Of a DNA stretch of 64,000 nt, positions 2,526 to 46,498 are shown one piece after another. Made by a program: the position numbers and the translations under genes. Under the pieces are notes generated by a model. It did no database searches, was not told where the DNA came from, and was given only the letters and a program-made list of their open reading frames with translations. The DNA lies in contig NZ_MLHN01000002.1 of the NCBI RefSeq assembly GCF_001999285.1, positions 1 to 64,000 of the forward strand. The letters run 5' to 3'. The DNA is from Rodentibacter genomosp. 1. Its GTDB lineage: Bacteria; Pseudomonadota; Gammaproteobacteria; Enterobacterales; Pasteurellaceae. Within the stretch, counting starts at the first letter, position 1; every line of letters begins with the position of its first letter.

Positions 2526-3617
2526 ATGAAAAATAACAAAAAAACATCACCGCTTTTACTTTCTGCACTTCGCAACCTCTCTGCGTTCGCTATTTACGAT
2601 TTATCTGATACCGAAATACTTATTCTTCTTAAAAATGCTCGTTGGGGAAATTCTCATTGTTTTCATACTGTTCAATGTCCTCGTTGCCAGATTGAGCATA
2701 AAGCCTATTTTATTTCTTCTCGTAAGCAATGGCAGTGCAAGCATTGCCAACATCGTTTTTCTGTAAAAAGTGGTACGATTTTTCAGCACACTAAACTTTC
2801 CCTAAAAAAGCTACTGTTATCGGTTTATTATTTCACTATCAATAGTAAAGGGATTTCTGCTCTTAACTTATCTCGTCATATTGGCGTGCAATATAAAACG
2901 TCATGGGCATTACTACATAAATTCCGTGAAGCAGTTGAAAAAACGCAAGATTACACACCACTCACGGGCATTATTCATATTGATGGTTGTTATGTGAATA
3001 ACTACCTTCGCCCAAAAAATTTTAAACATAAGCGAATTGATAGACGTAAGAGATGCCACCAACGTAAAGACAAATCCTGTGTTATGGTTTTCCGTCAACA
3101 AGCTGCAAATCAGGAAATAATAAAAGGAGCCGACCGCACACTCGTTGCGTTAGTTAAAGAGGAAAATGCTGATGATATGTTTGCTTTAACACATCGCTTA
3201 GTCGCACAAAAATCTACAATTTGTGCTGATGAAAATCCTGCTTATGATGGCTTGGCATTTCACTATGACTTATGTCGCGTAAATCATTCGCAAGAATATT
3301 GCTCGATTGACGGCACCACCAACAACCTAGCAGAATCCTTCTTTGCAAGATTTAGAAGAATGATTATGAGTGTGTATCATAAGATGGGAAATAATTACAT
3401 GATGCACTATGCGAATGAAACCGCATGGCGTGAGGATTTTCGTTACCAGTCAGATAAAGACAAATTCGACAACGTACTAAAACGCTGTTTGAAAGCTAGA
3501 CCTTCACGAGATTTAACTGGCTACTGGCAGGGAAATAAGAAACCTGCGGCAAAATTCGGATTGGAAAGTTTATGTTTGGAAGCCTCAAACGATAACCAAT
3601 ATTTAGCCGTAGCCTAA
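2526..3617 (+). CDS. IS1595-family transposase (ISXO2-like domain)
   Basis: This 363-residue protein begins with a zinc ribbon (CPRC near residues 51-54, CKHC near 71-74). An ISXO2-like catalytic domain follows, with acidic residues in HIDGCYV and ADENPAYDGL and a terminal NNLAESFFARFRRM block carrying the conserved Glu. This is the usual layout of full-length IS1595-family transposases; the IS1016 type common in Haemophilus is shorter and lacks the ribbon. The frame is intact, so the enzyme may be active. Terminal inverted repeats could not be found by eye, so the element's ends are not set. The next gene starts 25 bases downstream and may be a passenger. Confidence 0.88.
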   Translation: MKNNKKTSPLLLSALRNLSAFAIYDLSDTEILILLKNARWGNSHCFHTVQCPRCQIEHKAYFISSRKQWQCKHCQHRFSVKSGTIFQHTKLSLKKLLLSVYYFTINSKGISALNLSRHIGVQYKTSWALLHKFREAVEKTQDYTPLTGIIHIDGCYVNNYLRPKNFKHKRIDRRKRCHQRKDKSCVMVFRQQAANQEIIKGADRTLVALVKEENADDMFALTHRLVAQKSTICADENPAYDGLAFHYDLCRVNHSQEYCSIDGTTNNLAESFFARFRRMIMSVYHKMGNNYMMHYANETAWREDFRYQSDKDKFDNVLKRCLKARPSRDLTGYWQGNKKPAAKFGLESLCLEASNDNQYLAVA

Positions 3618-37900: not shown

Positions 37901-39034
37901 ATGGAGTTAATGATTTTAATTATTTATGCTTCGCTTTGTGTGGGAATTTTTAAACTCTTTAAAATTCCTTTAAACAAATGGTCGGTTCCAACGGCTATTT
38001 TAGGTGGAGTAGTATTGCTGGTTTCAATGTTATTATTTATGAATTATAACCATCCACATACCAAATTAGCGACACAATATTATGTTTCCACACCCATTGT
38101 GCCACAGGTTCGTGGTCGTGTGATTGAAGTCAATCAATTTACACCGAACCAACGGATCAAAAAAGGTGAGGTGCTATTTCGTATTGATCCTACACCTTAT
38201 CAAGCCGATGTCGATGCGAAAAAAGCGGAACTGGCGAGTGCAATTCAAACGGCAACAACATTGCAACTTGATGTGAATGCCGCTAAAGCCCGCTTAGAAG
38301 AAGCAAAATTGACGATGTACCAAAAACAAAAAGAAGCAGAACGTTACAAAAAACTCGTGGTGACACAAGGAGTGAGCCACCTAGAGGCGGAAATTAAAAT
38401 CCGCGAAGCCTTGAGTGCAAAAGCGACCTATGAAACCCGCATTGCCGAGCTTGAAAAAGCAGAGAAATTGCTAGATTCTAACATTAAGGGGGAAAATACC
38501 ACCGTTGCAGCCAAACGTGCCGCCCTTGAACGTGCTGAATTCGATTTGGAATCAACGATTGTGCGTGCACCGTCTGACGGTTATATTTCACAGCAATTTT
38601 TACAAGAAGGTATGATGGCAGGACGTTTAGCTATTCGCCCGGTGATGACCTTTATTGGTGAACAAAAACGTCAGTTTGTTGCAGCATTTCGTCAAAATTC
38701 TCTATTACGTTTAAAAGCCGGTGATGAGGCAGAATTAGCCTTTCCTGCTATTCCTGGAAAAGTTTTCTCTGCCAAAGTGAAAGCAATTTTACCGGCTATC
38801 GGTGAAAGTGAAGTACAAGCAAACGGCACAACATATACCCGTAAATTCATTGATGAACAAGCCATGCCTCTTGTATTACTTGAACTCACTGAAGAGATGG
38901 AGGAATATCAACTTCCTTTTGGTGCAACCGCAGAAGCGGCAGTTTACACCGAACACGCTCACCATCTCGCTATGATGCGTAAAATTTTATTGAGAATGAA
39001 TAGTTGGAAAAATTACCTCTATTTGGATCACTAA
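37901..39034 (+). CDS. HlyD-family membrane fusion protein (YiaV/YibH-like)
   Basis: This 377-residue protein has two N-terminal membrane helices, then the biotinyl-lipoyl-like VRGRVIEVNQFTPNQRIKKGE block, a long helical hairpin (about 105-200) and the beta-barrel with FRIDPTPYQADV. It is built like adaptor proteins of efflux pumps, but no pump gene lies next to it. It follows the DUF3302 gene by 3 bases and ends at a terminator. Confidence 0.9.
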   Translation: MELMILIIYASLCVGIFKLFKIPLNKWSVPTAILGGVVLLVSMLLFMNYNHPHTKLATQYYVSTPIVPQVRGRVIEVNQFTPNQRIKKGEVLFRIDPTPYQADVDAKKAELASAIQTATTLQLDVNAAKARLEEAKLTMYQKQKEAERYKKLVVTQGVSHLEAEIKIREALSAKATYETRIAELEKAEKLLDSNIKGENTTVAAKRAALERAEFDLESTIVRAPSDGYISQQFLQEGMMAGRLAIRPVMTFIGEQKRQFVAAFRQNSLLRLKAGDEAELAFPAIPGKVFSAKVKAILPAIGESEVQANGTTYTRKFIDEQAMPLVLLELTEEMEEYQLPFGATAEAAVYTEHAHHLAMMRKILLRMNSWKNYLYLDH

Positions 39035-39260: not shown

Positions 39261-40754
39261 ATGGATAATCTATTAAATAAGTGTAGTCGTGCGAGTGCCA
39301 TACCTTCATTATTATGTGATTTTTACAAAACCTCTCACCGAATAATGTATCCTGAAGGTTCACAAATTCTTTATAGTACATTTACACCCCGTAGCAACAA
39401 ACATGCCCCTTATTTAATAAGAGTAGTCTCCTTTGGTTTCCAAGCATTTATTACTAAATATTTAATTCATTATTTTAATGACAACTTCTTTTCTCGGGAT
39501 AAAGATGAAATTGTTTCCGAATATTCAGATTTTATTAAAAAAACGTTGCAGTTAGATGATAAAGGGGAACACATTAAACAACTACACGAACTAGGTTACT
39601 TACCCATTCGGATTAAAGCCATTCCTGAAGGAAAAACCGTAGCAATTAAAGTTCCCGTGATGACGATTGAGAATACCCATCCCGATTTCTTTTGGCTGAC
39701 AAACTATTTAGAAACACTTATTAATGTATCCCTTTGGCAGCCGATGACCTCAGCTTCCATTGCTTTTGCCTGTCGAACACTATTAGCTAAGTTTGCAAAT
39801 GAAACCTGTGATAACCAAGATCACGTGCCATTTCAATCTCACGATTTTTCAATGAGAGGTATGAGTTCTTTAGAATCGGCGGAAACTTCGGGGGCGGCTC
39901 ATTTAACCTCTTTTTTAGGTACAGATACGATTCCGGCGATCGCTTTCATTGAAGCCTACTATGGCTCTAAGGATTTAATTGGCACTTCAATACCGGCTTC
40001 AGAACACTCAGTGATGAGCTCACATGGTATTGATGAATTGCCTACATTTCGTTATTTAATGGCAAAATTCCCGAATAGTATGTTGTCAATTGTGTCGGAT
40101 ACCACTGATTTTTGGCATAACATTACGATTAATTTACCTTTATTGAAGCAGGAAATTATGACAAGACCTGAAAATGCCCGTTTAGTTATTCGGCCTGATA
40201 GCGGTGATTTTTTTGCGATTATTTGTGGCGATCCTACGGCAAATACTGAACATGAACGTAAAGGGCTGATTGAGTGCTTATGGGATATTTTTGGTGGCAC
40301 AGTTAATCAGAAAGGTTATAAAGTTCTTGATCCCCATATTGGTGCTATTTATGGCGATGGCGTAACTTATGAAAAAATGGTGAAGATTTTAGAGGGGCTA
40401 AAAACCAAAGGCTTTGCCTCAAGTAATATTGTGTTTGGTGTTGGTGCACAAACTTATCAGCGTAATACACGTGATACATTAGGATTTGCTATTAAAGCCA
40501 CCTCTATCACGATTAATGGTGAAGAAAAAGCGATCTTTAAAAACCCTAAAACCGATAAAGGTCTAAAAAAATCCCAAAAAGGCCGGGTTAAAGTCCTTTC
40601 TTATGATACCTATCTTGATGGACTAACCGCAAAAGATGACTTTAGTGATGATTTATTAGAACTACTCTTTGAAGACGGCAAACTGCTACGTCGAACTGGT
40701 TTTGATCAAATTAGACAAAATTTATTTGCCGATTATAACCCACCATCAAATTAA
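39261..40754 (+). CDS. nadV: Nicotinamide phosphoribosyltransferase NadV
   Basis: This 497-residue enzyme converts nicotinamide and PRPP to NMN. It is very close to the NadV of Haemophilus ducreyi as I recall it (SRASAIPSLLCDFYKTSHRI, GFQAFITKYLIHYFNDNFFS, QSHDFSMRGMSSLE, VIRPDSGDFF). Possession of nadV frees Pasteurellaceae from the V-factor requirement. It lies in the infB-rbfA island with its own promoter region, and hairpin-forming sequence follows. In other species it is also found on plasmids. Confidence 0.96.
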   Translation: MDNLLNKCSRASAIPSLLCDFYKTSHRIMYPEGSQILYSTFTPRSNKHAPYLIRVVSFGFQAFITKYLIHYFNDNFFSRDKDEIVSEYSDFIKKTLQLDDKGEHIKQLHELGYLPIRIKAIPEGKTVAIKVPVMTIENTHPDFFWLTNYLETLINVSLWQPMTSASIAFACRTLLAKFANETCDNQDHVPFQSHDFSMRGMSSLESAETSGAAHLTSFLGTDTIPAIAFIEAYYGSKDLIGTSIPASEHSVMSSHGIDELPTFRYLMAKFPNSMLSIVSDTTDFWHNITINLPLLKQEIMTRPENARLVIRPDSGDFFAIICGDPTANTEHERKGLIECLWDIFGGTVNQKGYKVLDPHIGAIYGDGVTYEKMVKILEGLKTKGFASSNIVFGVGAQTYQRNTRDTLGFAIKATSITINGEEKAIFKNPKTDKGLKKSQKGRVKVLSYDTYLDGLTAKDDFSDDLLELLFEDGKLLRRTGFDQIRQNLFADYNPPSN

Positions 40755-40784
40755 TAAGTTGCTTTTAGGGTATTATAACCAAAA

Positions 40785-40815
40785 GAGCGGTTAACTATTA
40801 TCACGTTTACCGCTC
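40785..40815 (+). terminator. Weak hairpin after nadV
   Basis: GAGCGGTTAAC and GTTTACCGCTC form an 11-bp stem with one mismatch. The T-tract is weak. The arms carry the GAGCGGT variant of the uptake core. Confidence 0.5.
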
Positions 40816-40906
40816 CTTTACCTAACCTCTGACTCGGGCTACCTTTCTTTCATAAAATAAAAAAATTTTTCTCACGACACAACCTGTCGCAGTGCATTAT
40901 GAGAAA

Positions 40907-40939
40907 TGCTTTATACTCCGGTGTGATTTAATTATCACA
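40907..40939 (+). promoter_or_regulatory. Promoter and palindromic site of the LRV/AAA operon
   Basis: TGCTTTATACT gives a -10-like TATACT at 40912 with no clear -35. Just downstream TGTGAT-TTAATT-ATCACA (40922-40939) is an inverted repeat with 6-bp arms, directly before the GAGGAG ribosome site and ATG 40953. A protein bound there would block transcription or translation. The arms resemble CRP half-sites, but the spacing (8 bases between TGTGA and TCACA) is two bases too long for CRP. Confidence 0.5.
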
Positions 40940-40952
40940 GAGGAGAAAATCT

Positions 40953-41666
40953 ATGCGTAGACTTACCGTTAATTCAAATCCTGAAAATATCAATCAACAA
41001 ATCCCTTCAAATTTAGCGGAGCAACCGACAGACTCCAAAGATAAAAGTGAAGCGGAACAGCAGATAAAAAGATTATTGGAGATTGAGGAACGCGATAATG
41101 AATATTGTGGTGAAGAGCTGGAAAATGCCGATAGCCCGCTAAGAAAAATGTTGCGCGAGGAACTTTCTGTTGAAACTCAAATGCTTTTGGCAAAATCCAA
41201 TACTTGGCGTGTACGAGAAATCCTTGCAGCAAATCCTTATCTCTCGGTACAAGCCCAACTAATTTTGGCGGAAGATGAGTATGACGATATAATTGAGATA
41301 CTTGCTGACAATCCGGCGCTTGGCGAAGCAACTCAATTAGTTTTGGCAAAAGGTCATAGCTGTTTGGCAAAAAGAACACTTGCTGAGAAGAATAATCTTC
41401 CCGAAAATGTGCAGTTGCTTTTAGCTCAAGATGAAGAGCGTTGGGTACGAAAAACGCTCTCAATGAATCCAAATGTTTCACCAAACGCACAAATACTTTT
41501 ATTGCAAAGTAGCGGTACAAGAATAGGGCTTGCCGGTAATCCGAATCTTTCTGAAGAAGTGCGGTTGGTTTTAGCTAAAGAAGGAAATAGGGAAGTAAAA
41601 GAAGCACTTAGAATTCACACTGAGCAAACAAAATTTACAAATAGTCAATGGTTTCGTTTTTTATAA
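40953..41666 (+). CDS. LRV (leucine-rich variant) repeat protein
   Basis: This 237-residue protein has a polar, charged N-terminus (1-70) and then about seven repeats of 26 residues of the type LAxNPxLSxxxQLxLAxDExxxVRxx (LAANPYLSVQAQLILAED, LAEKNNLPENVQLLLAQD, LAGNPNLSEEVRLVLAKE). These are alternating-helix LRV/HEAT-like repeats, usually binding surfaces. No Cys cluster for the 4Fe-4S centre of classical LRV proteins is present. It is the first of three genes; the third carries the same repeats at its C-terminus. The function is unknown. Confidence 0.85.
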   Translation: MRRLTVNSNPENINQQIPSNLAEQPTDSKDKSEAEQQIKRLLEIEERDNEYCGEELENADSPLRKMLREELSVETQMLLAKSNTWRVREILAANPYLSVQAQLILAEDEYDDIIEILADNPALGEATQLVLAKGHSCLAKRTLAEKNNLPENVQLLLAQDEERWVRKTLSMNPNVSPNAQILLLQSSGTRIGLAGNPNLSEEVRLVLAKEGNREVKEALRIHTEQTKFTNSQWFRFL

Positions 41667-41686
41667 TTGATTAAGAGGAAAACACC

Positions 41687-42994
41687 ATGAACAATGGATT
41701 AGACCCTAATATTATTGAGGCACAATTTGAACGACTTAAAACGGATGAATATCAAAGTGAACTTATTGAGCAAGCAGAAAATGCCCTTTTTGCCGATCAA
41801 GAAAGTGGCGAAAAAGCGATGCGAACCATCAACGATTTCGTTAGCGACTATCTTGAAAATGGCCGTCATCAACCTATTGACGAATGGTTGATTGGACGTT
41901 TTAACTTTTATCCTGATATTTGGGAAAATGAACAAGAGAAAATTGATACGGCAAATGTGATTATTTCTACCATTGATTCCTTGGTTAAAAATCAGATTGA
42001 CGTTGAAAAAGCCCTCAATAAAGGTAAGACTCTTGCCAATGTTTTAAACACAAAACTGACAGATATTGCGAACCAAAATGGTTTTGATCCTACTGATACA
42101 TTGAAAGCAATAGATGAGGGATTGGAAAATGCCAACCTTGCCAGTACGGAAATGTATTTAGGGCAAGCTATTCCTTTAACGCCAAAAAGCGAAAGTACAA
42201 CGCCTTTGGATATCGCCCGAAATATCACGACTAAGGCAAAAATCAACGCAAATTTACATTTAATGGCGTATGGTGTGAGAACCATAGGCGAACGGCTATA
42301 CAATGCGGTTAAAGGCAAAGAAAACCGTAGCCAAAGCGAAGAATTGCTCCATATTTTACGTTCTTCTATTGAAACGGCTGAAAATAAAGGTGTTCAAGTA
42401 GCCATGTCGGGTGGGGTGGTGGTCTCTGCTAAAAAAGGGTGGATTAAAGCTGGTTTTGACACACTTAATAAAATTGAAAATGTAATAGAGATAACCCGCC
42501 AAAAATTGGATCGTGTGACGGATTTAGTATTGAGTGTGGGTGAAGGCTGGAACGATACCCGTATTCTCGATAAGGTTGAACAAGGCATTCTCAAAACCGT
42601 TGATGTTGCAGCAGAAAAAGCAAAATTTGTTGTATCAAAGGTGATTACCAAAGTTGAAAAAACCTGTGAAAACTGGTTAAAAACTAAAGGTAGGATGATT
42701 GGAACAAAAATTGGCGCAGTAATTGGTTCTGTCACTAAAGTTGGTCCGATCGCTACAGTAATTAGCGCTACGATAGGCGGCTATGTTGGCGAAAAAGTGG
42801 GGAAATTCGTTGCCGATAAAGTGGTTAAACCTGTCGCAAAGACAGTTAAAAAAATCACGTATGGTGCCATTGATGTTGTTAAAGATACGGCTAAAACGGT
42901 GGTTTCTACAGTAAGTGAGGGAGTGAAGAGAGTGGGTAAATTTGTATCATCTGGGGTAAGTAAAGTAAAAGATTTTTTTTCTTCTTTGTTGTAA
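41687..42994 (+). CDS. Unknown protein with amphipathic, glycine-zipper-like tail
   Basis: This 435-residue protein is almost wholly helical. Residues 1-260 are acidic and soluble in character. From about 340 there is a hydrophobic Gly-rich stretch (IGTKIGAVIGSVTK, ATVISATIGGYVGEKVGKFV) and then repeated Val/Lys amphipathic segments (VVKPVAKTVKK, VVKDTAKTVVSTVSEGVKRV) to the end. Such tails occur in membrane-inserting or lipid-binding proteins. There is no signal peptide. It lies 20 bases after the LRV gene and 51 before the AAA gene, so co-expression is likely. I do not recognise the family. Confidence 0.8.
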   Translation: MNNGLDPNIIEAQFERLKTDEYQSELIEQAENALFADQESGEKAMRTINDFVSDYLENGRHQPIDEWLIGRFNFYPDIWENEQEKIDTANVIISTIDSLVKNQIDVEKALNKGKTLANVLNTKLTDIANQNGFDPTDTLKAIDEGLENANLASTEMYLGQAIPLTPKSESTTPLDIARNITTKAKINANLHLMAYGVRTIGERLYNAVKGKENRSQSEELLHILRSSIETAENKGVQVAMSGGVVVSAKKGWIKAGFDTLNKIENVIEITRQKLDRVTDLVLSVGEGWNDTRILDKVEQGILKTVDVAAEKAKFVVSKVITKVEKTCENWLKTKGRMIGTKIGAVIGSVTKVGPIATVISATIGGYVGEKVGKFVADKVVKPVAKTVKKITYGAIDVVKDTAKTVVSTVSEGVKRVGKFVSSGVSKVKDFFSSLL

Positions 42995-43045
42995 ATCGAT
43001 TTTCATCAAATACCGTTAATTACATATTTATAAAAAGGATCAAAA

Positions 43046-45499
43046 ATGAAACTAAACCAACAACTTATTGAATTGATTAAAGCAGGGTATTCCACATTTT
43101 ATCTTCACACGGCTGAAACGGCTCGGGCAGAAAATCTCGTGGAGGAAGTGGCAAAAGAACTTGGTTTTAATGTCCACGAGATTAACCTCGCGCAAGGAAA
43201 AATCGATTTTTCCAACAAATCCCAAATTAAAGAAAATCACGGACGCATTGAACAAACCTTAAATGATCTTTTGGATGAAGATTTAGAACAAAACCTCTTT
43301 TTCATCAAAAATGCCAAACTTGCCTTAGAAAATAACCCGGTTACCGTAGCACGTTTGCAATATCTTATCGAAAAAATTGAACGCCATTACACCGGCGAAT
43401 GTGCCGTGATTTTACAATCTTCGGAAGTCTATATTCCTGCTGATATTGAACCTTTTATCACACTTTTGGAAATGCCTTTGCCAAAAGAAAGCGACATCAA
43501 AGCCATTATGGATGATCTCAATATTGAAGCAGAAAAACAAAGTAAATTTATCACCGCACTTTCCGGCTTGAATGAGTTAGAAATCAAAAAAGTGCTGACG
43601 CTGATCAAACAACGTTTTAATGGTTTTAATGAAAGCGATCTAGACAAAATGCTCAATGAAATTCGCCAACAAAAAGAGCAAATTATCGCCAAAAGTGGTG
43701 TGTTGGAAATGGTGAAAGTGGATAATCAGATCGGCGATATTGGTGGCTTAGAAAATCTCAAAAAATGGTTGCAAGAGCAAGCCTATATTGTCGGAAATTT
43801 AGAAAAAGCAAAAGCCTTTGGCGTAAAAGCACCGAAAGGTGCATTGATTGCCGGAATGCCAGGTTGTGGTAAATCACTCACTGCCAAAGCCGCTGCCGCT
43901 TTGTTTCAACAACCTTTAGTTCGATTGGATATCGGCTCACTACTGGGCAAATATGTGGGTGAAAGCGAAACTAATATGCGTAAAGCCCTCGCCATGGCAG
44001 AAAGTATCAGCCCCTGTGTGCTTTGGGTGGATGAGTTGGAAAAAGCCTTTGTTGGAATGTCAGGCAATAATGCCTCGGAAGTCAGTTCTCGTCTTTTGGG
44101 CTATTTTTTAACCTGGATGCAAGAAAAAACACAGCCTGTATTTATTATCGCCACTGCTAACGACATCACTGCTTTACCACCGGAATTGCTCCGTAAAGGA
44201 CGTTTTGATGAAATTTTTTATGTGGGTTTTCCAAACTATACGGAACGTAAAAAAATTCTAGAAATTCATCTCAATAAAGCGAAACAAAAAGTCGATTCCT
44301 TGGATTTAGAAGAAACTGCTCGCCAATGCCGAGATTATTCCGGTGCAGATATTGAAAATGCGGTGTATGACGGTGTGAAACAAGCATTTCTTGCCAATGC
44401 CGGACACCTTAACCAAACTACATTAATTGAAGCGATTAACCGCACTGTGCCACTGCGTAAAACCTTGAGAGAGAAAGTGGGTGAGTATGAGAAAAAATTT
44501 GAGGAACTTTACCTCACCCCGGCTTCTCACTCTGACGGATTAAGCATTGCGGAAATGAATAAATTGGCAAATAGCACCAACTATCTTGACCGCTTAAAAG
44601 TAGCGGAAGATCCTGAAGTAACCGAAGATATTTTGGAAAAATTAGTAAAAGATGAAAATGTTGAGGTGAAAAAAGCCGCATTTAGAAATTCTAATTGTCC
44701 GAAAAAAGTGCTTGATGAACAGATTTCAATTAAAGATGAGGAGCCACGTTTTAATAAGGAAATTCGGGATATTATTGTGGAGCATAGAAATGTTTCAGCT
44801 GAATTGGTGATTGAGCTGTATAAAGAGGATAATTATGAGTATGAGCAAATTAGAGAAAATGTATTGGTTAATAAATATCTATCGGAAAATGAAAAATTAA
44901 AATTTGCAACACATAAAATAGACAGCGTTCGAGAAATGATTGCTAGAAGAGATGATCTATCTGAAGATGTCCAGCTCATTCTAGCGAAGGATAGCAACGA
45001 TGATGTAAAAGAACTACTATCTGCTCATAAAAACTTATACGAAAAAGCACAGATTATTCTAGCTGAAAGCAATTATAGTAGAGTTCGAGAATCGTTAGCT
45101 AGAAGAGATGATCTATCTGAAGATGTCCAGCTCATTCTAGCGAAGGATAGATATAATTATATAAAAGAGCTACTATCTGCTCATAAAAACTTATATGAAA
45201 AAGCACAGATTATTCTAGCTGAAAGCAATGATAGTAGAGTTCGAGCATCGTTAGCTAGGAATGAAAATCTTTGTGAAGAGGCTCAAATTATTTTGGCTAA
45301 AATAGCTGAGCATCCTGAGTCTAGTCCTATGACTTTTCGGTCGTGGTATGCTTTAGGGCTTACAAGAGAAGCAGAGGTCTTTGATAATCTACGCAATAAT
45401 AAAAATTTATGCGAAAAAGCGAGGGCTATTTTAAGACAAAAGGATATTGAGGCTATCCGTCAATCAAACACAGGAAATAATAGTACAAAAACTCAGTGA
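43046..45499 (+). CDS. AAA+ ATPase (Ycf46/FtsH-like) with C-terminal LRV repeats
   Basis: The 817-residue protein has three parts. Residues 1-230 are a Ycf46-like N-terminal domain ([20 protein letters not shown]). The AAA+ module has Walker A GMPGCGKS near 271, Walker [13 protein letters not shown] near 324, sensor ATANDI and the arginine-finger region RKGRFDEIF. From about 510 to 800 come 26-residue LRV repeats matching those of the first gene. Residues 633-736 are two near-identical 52-residue units. The TGA at 45497 is followed in the same frame by 56 more sense codons of repeat sequence, so the protein may be shortened. It would remodel a protein chosen by the repeats. Confidence 0.88.
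44942..45253 (+). repeat. 156-bp tandem duplication inside the AAA-LRV gene
   Basis: Two direct copies (44942-45097 and 45098-45253) are almost identical at the DNA level; long blocks such as GATGATCTATCTGAAGATGT are unchanged. Each unit codes two 26-residue repeats. A third, diverged unit starts at 45254. Conservation at silent sites points to recent duplication, so unit number could change by recombination. Confidence 0.88.
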
Positions 45500-45670
45500 A
45501 AATCCGCTTTTTCCCCTGAAGAACAGCTTAAAATGGTAAAAAGCAGAGATGTTTTTGTAAGACGGAAGTTAGCTGAAAGTCCAAATTTACTTCGCGATGT
45601 TATTGAGCAATTAGGAAAGGATCAAAATTTTAGTGTAAGAAAAAGTTTAGAAGAAAATACGCTTAAATAG
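45500..45670 (+). pseudogene. In-frame continuation of LRV repeats after the AAA gene stop
   Basis: After the TGA at 45497-45499 the same frame stays open for 56 codons to TAG at 45668. It reads SAFSPEEQLKMVKSRDVFVR and on, with RKLAESPNL and VRKSLEEN, which are clear LRV repeats. Either a nonsense mutation removed the last two repeats, or this is a residue of repeat exchange. An ATG at 45534 has no good ribosome site. Confidence 0.75.
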
Positions 45671-45907
45671 TATTTTAAACGTTAGTTAGATATTATTTAG
45701 GGGATATTTATATCTAATTTGATAGATTATCCAAAATAAAGAGGGGCAATTCCCTCTTTTTATTGCTTTCAAAAAATCCCGATATTAGGTTGCAAACACA
45801 CAAATCGGGACTTTCAATGGAATGTAGATTCCATAGGCACAGCAAATTTATTTTACCAATATCGCTAAATTAAACTAATATCCTCCCAATATTAAATAAC
45901 GTGACCG

Positions 45908-46018
45908 GTAGGGACACACTGCGTGTGTCCGCTTAATGATTTGATTTTATAACGGACACACGCAGTCTGTCCCTACCATTTCATTAAATTGTACATTTGC
46001 GACATAAGGCCGAAAAAT
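45908..46018 (+). repeat. Dispersed double-hairpin repeat, full copy C
   Basis: GTAGGGACACAC (45908) to GTCCCTAC (45976) forms two GGACACAC/GTGTGTCC-type hairpins around TTAATGATTTGATTTTATAA. The tail follows (TGTACATTTGCGACATAAGG). It lies upstream of the rbfA promoter, at the end of the infB-rbfA island. Confidence 0.8.
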
Positions 46019-46062
46019 TCCCTCGAAACAGACCGCACTTTTCACTTTTGGACGATAAATTT

Positions 46063-46071
46063 TGCTATAAT
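46063..46071 (+). promoter_or_regulatory. Extended -10 promoter of rbfA-truB
   Basis: TGC-TATAAT is a perfect extended -10 element 41 bases before the rbfA ATG, with no good -35. It gives rbfA-truB independent transcription although infB is 8.8 kb upstream. Confidence 0.75.
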
Positions 46072-46111
46072 CCCTCGCCTTAAAAAAGAATTTTGACAAT
46101 AGGAAAAGAAA

Positions 46112-46498
46112 ATGGCTCGAGAATTTAAACGTAGCGACCGTGTTGCGCAAGAAATCCAGAAAGAAATTGCGGTGATTTTACAGCGTGAGGTGAAAGATCC
46201 CCGTGTTGGTATGGTAACCGTATCCGATGTGGAGGTGTCGAGTGATTTGGCGTATGCCAAAATTTTTGTCACTTTCTTGTTCGATCACGATGAAACGGCA
46301 ATTGAACAAGGGATGAAAGGGTTGGAAAAAGCCGCACCTTATATTCGCACTTTGCTTGGTAAAGCGATGCGTTTACGCATTGTGCCGGAAATTCGTTTTA
46401 TCTACGATCAATCCCTCGTGGAAGGGATGAGAATGTCCAATTTGGTGACGAACGTGGTGCGTGAAGATGAACGCAAACATGTTGAGGACGAGCAATAA
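46112..46498 (+). CDS. rbfA: Ribosome-binding factor A
   Basis: This 128-residue KH-like protein is needed for 16S rRNA 5' processing and cold adaptation. [20 protein letters not shown] and [20 protein letters not shown] are the usual blocks. ATAGGAAAAGAAA precedes the ATG. Its stop overlaps the truB start (TAATG). In most relatives it follows infB at once; here an island intervenes. Confidence 0.96.

Follow-up and report, generated by a model that had tools for sequence, protein, structure and literature searches.

We analyzed a 64,000-nucleotide stretch of Rodentibacter genomosp. 1 (contig NZ_MLHN01000002.1, positions 1 to 64,000; hereafter the window) and focused on three plus-strand open reading frames (ORFs) located between nadV (39261–40754) and rbfA (46112–46498). 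These encode, in order, a stand-alone protein of LRV repeats, a Gly-zipper protein that we term MID, and an AAA+ ATPase with an LRV tail (AAA-LRV ATPase; Table 1). The intergenic gaps of 20 and 51 nt bear out the close spacing noted in a first-pass annotation of the sequence, which had proposed the three genes as a candidate undescribed system. We find that the core unit is smaller: MID and the ATPase are linked across genomes as a mobile two-gene pair, whereas the LRV gene does not belong to the conserved unit.

Table 1 Features of the nadV–rbfA region in the window
Feature	Positions	Strand	Basis
Variable site holding the module, nadV to rbfA	40755–46111	no strand	
Palindrome TGTGAT-N6-ATCACA, just 5' of the LRV gene	40922–40939	+	
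Stand-alone LRV protein, 237 aa, accessory, 36% identity to the ATPase tail	40953–41666	+	
MID, Gly-zipper partner, 435 aa, short form (no nuclease-like insert)	41687–42994	+	ORF, Pfam, alignment A3
Gly-zipper hairpin of MID, residues ~331–376	42677–42814	+	Pfam; glycines invariant across alignment A3
Basic amphipathic C-terminal tail of MID; last part replaced between sister species	42815–42991	+	
AAA-LRV ATPase, 817 aa: N-terminal region without P-loop, motif-complete AAA+ domain, predicted LRV solenoid tail	43046–45499	+	
LRV/HEAT-like alpha-solenoid tail of the ATPase (predicted), residues ~500–810, hypervariable	44543–45475	+	
Tandem duplication in the ATPase tail, 2 × 156 nt at 91% identity, each copy spanning two 26-aa repeats	44924–45235	+	
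LRV-like coding, in frame past the TGA	45500–45670	+	
Terminator-like hairpin 3' of the operon	45738–45759	+	

Among 140 Pasteurellaceae genomes, MID was matched in eight (E ≤ 1e-3) and the ATPase in seven (E ≤ 1e-30). The surplus MID match (G026, E 2e-6) was excluded because it covers the zipper part only, in a 1014-aa protein among phage-like genes, leaving both genes in the same seven genomes, which belong to 4 of 43 genera. In each of the seven carriers, both genes are on one strand, with MID as the upstream gene. Searches combined with gene-neighbourhood analysis, the check proposed by the first-pass annotation, thus showed that the two genes recur together, and this repeated pairing, along with the clade restriction described below, led us to reject the explanation that they are chance neighbours, to which we now assign a negligible probability. 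At one of these loci (L016, 5025–8770), the ATPase gene is flanked by two 216-aa transposase ORFs, one of them between MID and the ATPase.

We then considered the ATPase family at large, searching 369 class-level, 394 order-level and 398 phylum-level genomes in addition to plasmids, phages and viral contigs. Gene surroundings were read for 40 of the 70 ATPase matches at class level, the 18 best-scoring of 70 at order level, 2 of 3 at phylum level, all 29 viral loci, 6 of 860 plasmid or phage records, and Escherichia coli ZF34; the motif score used in screening loci is independent of the MID profile. From 104 loci considered, 93 gave AAA cores (96 in total, 94 after duplicate removal); two repeat other loci (L028, L124), one is without such an ATPase (L104), and eight yielded no core within the length and E-value limits (L073, L085, L101, L126, L131, L132, L134, L184). 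A MID-family neighbour, defined as a match to the profile of MID alignment A3 at E ≤ 1e-3 on the same strand within 2.5 kb, was found beside 19 of the 94 ATPases, a count that could miss other partner types since the profile was built from pairs already seen. In the tree of AAA cores, a single clade of 21 rows (support 100/92) holds all 19 MID-linked ATPases, and none of the 73 rows outside it has a MID neighbour. The MID label requires 3 changes on the tree, compared to 17.5 when labels are shuffled, and none of 500 shuffles came as low. Members of the clade occur in Pasteurellaceae, other families of the order and E. coli, and on enterobacterial plasmids as well as one plasmid each from Microcystis and Exiguobacterium. 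Gene order varies, with MID following the ATPase at L170, L172 and L173. The pair DNA of E. coli ZF34 matches only 3 of 5426 E. coli genomes. The window MID had no plasmid match at E ≤ 1e-3, while its long form (see below) was present in 16 plasmid records; no relatives of MID or of the window AAA ATPase were found in viral contigs.

Three further arrangements were observed among these loci. L172 (4611–12885) carries two tandem ATPase–MID pairs in one genome (G790). In six genomes of the same order (L175–L180), the AAA proteins (~530–550 aa) form a starred clade of their own and belong to a different operon, which also encodes a ~1150-aa protein, a 520–590-aa protein and a further large protein; at L175, the ~1150-aa protein is a MkoA-like helicase and the large protein has a weak PLD match. 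Finally, a 300–350 aa protein, alike by eye (~'KFNL...GLLKRWLEVRG'), precedes ATPases without an LRV tail (L032 2612–3652; L170 5614–6513; L172 7869–8924; L174 8632–9621). Two of these proteins were scanned with Pfam and gave no match; they are perhaps adaptors acting in trans.

A pair of this kind has already been predicted in print, so the system is not wholly undescribed. Bell et al. (eLife 2024, PMC11090510) predict that type III-A CoCoNuT operons contain a SpoVK AAA+/Gly-zipper cassette, with an AAA+ protein of tandem domains, only the second active, followed by C-terminal leucine-rich repeats, and a partner whose insert is read as an inactivated PD-(D/E)xK fold. Three of our loci (L027, L063 and L103) fit this description of the embedded cassette, and the window shares with it an AAA+ gene whose neighbour encodes a C-terminal Gly-zipper, as well as leucine-rich repeats at the end of the ATPase (26-aa period, solenoid model); moreover, the long partner form of L027 and L103 aligns with MID. 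The window partner differs in being without the PD-(D/E)xK-like insert, and the window ATPase in its LRV-only tail, in which the biotin-carrier-like barrel described at the C-terminus of the cassette ATPase was not found: the Pfam family Biotin_lipoyl has no match in the window and is present in L016 and L027. The core of type III-A CoCoNuTs is CnuB/CnuC, McrBC homologues. CnuB of L103 had no match in any of the seven Pasteurellaceae carriers, whereas the control genome G195 was matched (E 1e-141), and the free-standing window pair is flanked by nadV and rbfA instead of TerY-like VWA genes. We therefore rejected a type III-A CoCoNuT as the identity of the window locus. A free-standing form of the cassette was not found in the open-licence literature, and we rate the window pair as a free-standing variant of the already predicted cassette.

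The ATPase carries Walker A GMPGCGKS (270), Walker B VLWVDE (325), ATAN (369) and RKGRFD (383), a full motif set within residues 270–388, and matches Pfam AAA with 110 bits, in agreement with its initial assignment as an AAA+ remodeller with Walker A, Walker B and arginine-finger region. No P-loop pattern is present in residues 1–225, and the N-terminal region has low confidence (predicted local distance difference test, pLDDT) in an AlphaFold2 model. In the tail, a 26-residue period is the best lag (0 of 1000 shuffles as strong). Tail blocks of residues 501–750 were modelled as paired short helices with pLDDT 77–95, apart from one block at 62, the rest of the model being poor. VIA-align returned HEAT-type solenoids and 1LRV (Z 10.6, 201 residues, root-mean-square deviation 5.6) among its matches, which are helical repeats for which Z up to ~13 is possible by chance and which barely test the AAA part; Foldseek with the whole ATPase gave HEAT proteins at low template-modelling scores. 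An LRV/HEAT-like solenoid is predicted for the tail. The frame stops at an in-frame TGA (45497–45499), beyond which LRV-like coding stays in frame up to a TAG at 45670; this probably reflects a shortened ATPase tail.

The best PADLOC match of the window ATPase is the ATPase IetA of IetAS (AAA ATPase IetA plus subtilase IetS) at 85 bits; the NCBIfam score for IetA is 86.3 against a cut-off of 510 bits, and no subtilase adjoins the gene. Solo AAA ATPases, which we take to be Ycf46/SpoVK-like, have AAA+ cores ~40–46% identical to that of the window, but are mostly ~500 aa long, have no MID neighbour and fall into a separate 36-row clade. The nearest solved chains by sequence are p97/CDC48 (E 1.4e-61), from which the window ATPase is set apart by having motifs in one domain only and by a CDC48 model score of 122 against a cut-off of 803 bits. 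This affinity favors an accessory role in protein quality control or membrane-protein remodelling of the Msp1/p97 type, with MID as adaptor or membrane anchor and not as effector, as does the abundance of related ATPases, which match 68 of the 369 class genomes (E ≤ 1e-40) and for the most part, where read, are without MID. Yet the MID-linked ATPases form their own clade, and a mobile, patchily distributed gene with a hypervariable tail and defence neighbours is not what such a role would lead one to expect; we consider it rather unlikely.

The first-pass annotation had remarked that MID looks able to enter membranes, and the Gly-zipper hairpin and basic amphipathic tail seen in its sequence are consistent with this suggestion. 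The proposed Gly/Ala zipper-like stretch is present but just below the Pfam cut-off (24.7 against 25 bits). The last 60 residues have a net charge of +7 and include an amphipathic stretch close to the C-terminus, and the combination of charge and hydropathy would suit a protein that enters the membrane when triggered better than one that resides there permanently. Two forms of MID were found, a long one (~508–538 aa) carrying a ~120-residue insert and a short one lacking it, which align with each other over the N-terminal region and the C-terminal Gly-zipper; the insert is missing from all four Pasteurellaceae rows of alignment A3, window included. The partners at L030 and L032 are more distant (E ~1e-23 and ~1e-22), and six loci in the profile scan matched solely over the Gly-zipper part. 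Against solved structures, the profile matched only a tape-measure protein, over the Gly-zipper alone. On a Cronobacter plasmid (L104, 4885–10467), a WYL gene is followed by a protein with the insert and the later part of long MID (E 2e-24), and then by a 1068-aa protein.

The zipper was called bacteriocin-like in PMC11090510, and the C-terminal tails are variable, both of which would suit an exported MID used in bacteriocin-like or contact-dependent competition, with the ATPase driving its secretion or loading. An HlyD-type gene at 37901–39034 could be taken in the same sense, but the corresponding site of another Rodentibacter genome (L199) has an HlyD-type gene without the pair, which places this gene outside the module. 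MID has no signal-like N-terminus by eye, secretion genes having not been searched for systematically. We regard competition as very unlikely.

The stand-alone LRV protein passes the Pfam LRV model (PF01816; 26.1 bits against a cut-off of 21.6), and a 26-residue period is its best lag (matched by 3 of 1000 shuffles), so that the repeat said to be common to the first and third genes is real. No stand-alone counterpart was found in the other 139 Pasteurellaceae genomes (E ≤ 1e-5), where only ATPase tails match; because of this, we treat the gene as accessory and rejected it as a conserved third component of the module. The palindrome upstream of it, TGTGATTTAATTATCACA, had been put forward as the operon's own site, and we take it to be operator- or CRP-like. 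It is unique in the window and absent from 100 shuffles; at the MID genes of the six other Pasteurellaceae pair loci no such palindrome was found (at L015, the scan covered only ~100 nt upstream), and it was rejected as a conserved operator of the module.

Next, we compared the nadV–rbfA site in 12 other Rodentibacter genomes, which confirmed that the operon occupies a variable island. nadV adjoins rbfA, leaving the site empty, in five genomes (L195, L197, L198, L200, L202), and a type III methylase and restriction enzyme occupy it in L196 (PADLOC; 492 bits for MTase_III and 720 bits for REase_III). Between infB and rbfA, L204 has a PDC-S01-like gene (353 bits); L199, L203, L205 and L206 have neither nadV there nor a large insert; and the L201 stretch is too short to judge the site. 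In Rodentibacter ratti, the pair likewise sits between nadV and rbfA; the Rodentibacter rarus contig breaks off at MID, but on the other side its ATPase is followed by rbfA, as is that of the window. nadV itself (window 39261–40754; compare L199 and L203–L206) varies at the site, being there in some Rodentibacter genomes and missing in others. Between the operon and rbfA, the window also holds an 80-bp palindromic element (45903–45982) that occurs at ~41 places in the genome (from 80 two-strand matches listed) and is a hairpin or MITE-like (miniature inverted-repeat transposable element) repeat family.

The two sister species revealed a new feature of the pair. Between R. ratti and R. rarus, the ATPases are identical at 193 of 200 positions over residues 1–200 and at 279 of 280 over residues 201–480, and beyond residue 600 at 43 of 129, with 189 gapped positions. 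Along the DNA, in 100-nt steps, percent identity is 90–100 through MID to ~nt 1200, drops to 52 and 17, returns to 92–100 across the ATPase core, and is 65 and below from ~position 3000. The C-terminal ends of MID and of the ATPase have therefore both been replaced around a conserved core, the ATPase cores of these sister species being 96–100% identical.

The window and R. rarus have their MID tail in common, and their ATPase tails, from residue 490, are 53% identical over 276 columns, compared to 46% for window and R. ratti and 44% for R. rarus and R. ratti; the ATPase cores, unlike the tails, group R. rarus with R. ratti. This pattern raises the tentative idea of an NLR-like immune switch, in which the ATPase solenoid and the effector tail would be matched, exchangeable specificity modules recombining around a frozen core. 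We hold it to be doubtful. It depends on this one clear case; across seven systems, the correlation between tails given the core was modest (partial Mantel r 0.46, 193 of 5040 permutations as high; r 0.36 and 413 of 5040 without core correction); and G087 and G070, which share the MID tail KLNP[FL]NWF, do not support pairing, since the ends of their ATPases fail to align (z 0.0) and only G087 has a Pfam biotinyl-type domain. By eye, G070 seemed to end in the same barrel, but this was not borne out. If the idea were true, tail pairing, or phage factors attacking it, would decide when the effector is let loose.

Several pairs have defence genes as neighbours. In E. coli ZF34, a 523-aa MID and its ATPase lie downstream of BREX-1 genes, from which they are separated by insertion sequence (IS) elements, a vWA gene and a short thermonuclease gene. 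On their other side come a Card1-like nuclease, VWA, phosphatase, kinase, helicase, a protein annotated ParA, and DUF2357. Elsewhere, a PtuA-like ATPase (123 bits) directly follows the pair (L018), a PDC-S01-like gene (360 bits) comes after it (L017), a WYL gene and a cytosine methylase stand on either side (L169), and McrC lies next door (L032). PADLOC families (E ≤ 1e-5) matched 5 of 11 pair-flanking genes (L017, L018, L027 downstream, L169 both sides) and missed L027 upstream, L032, L167, L170 and two at L172, or 5 of 12 if a small gene beside the L170 ATPase is added; among the flanks of solo AAA ATPases, taken as control, 1 of 10 matched. The anticipated co-occurrence with defence genes thus extends to some neighbours, in a small hand-picked sample.

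Tight two-gene linkage, patchy spread (7/140), long-form copies on plasmids and the replacement of both tails between sister species could also be accommodated by a toxin–antitoxin-like addiction pair that stabilises its island or plasmid, MID being a membrane toxin and the ATPase a factor that continuously disassembles it. In E. coli and L063, though, the pair sits inside large defence operons, and an ATPase of 500–1400 aa would, from general knowledge, be unusual as an antitoxin, so that we judge addiction to be an unlikely explanation. We favor, with somewhat better than even confidence, a free-standing two-gene cassette that is most likely an anti-phage module of the abortive-infection type, combining a p97/SpoVK-like remodeller with a latent membrane effector. 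The first-pass annotation had likewise pictured an ATPase with a repeat adaptor controlling a membrane effector, which we regard as plausible and as the leading model. In this anti-phage module, the ATPase, with one AAA+ domain carrying all catalytic motifs and a repeat tail, would act as the remodeller, presumably as a hexamer, and its variable solenoid tail may bind MID, the trigger, or both. MID, mostly helical and without an obvious permanent transmembrane segment, could be a latent membrane-inserting effector by virtue of its Gly-zipper hairpin and basic amphipathic tail. ATP-driven remodelling would either keep MID soluble or release it, and infection would lead to membrane insertion of MID, membrane damage and abortive infection.

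Several observations weigh against the anti-phage reading. We found no phage assay of the pair in the open-licence literature, and the flanking-gene evidence is thin, the sample being small with pair flanks hand-picked and control flanks random. MID belongs to no PADLOC family, its best 19-residue hydropathy is only 1.51, its AlphaFold2 model from three sequences was unusable (pLDDT 39.9), and similar Gly-zippers occur in a tape-measure protein. Furthermore, the pair is not always intact: for two clade members (L171, L174) the stretch read contains no MID, an IS interrupts the pair at L016, and at L019 (6518–10483) it has decayed, MID being broken into two ORFs and the ATPase frame containing an internal TAG.

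Inside a huge defence superoperon, the cassette's own role is hard to separate; the free-standing form comprises two genes in ~4 kb, and the prediction is therefore testable in one cloning step. If the ATPase does gate a membrane effector, a p97-like remodeller would stand at the centre of a bacterial immune switch, and the frozen core and replaced tails of both proteins point to where recognition would sit.

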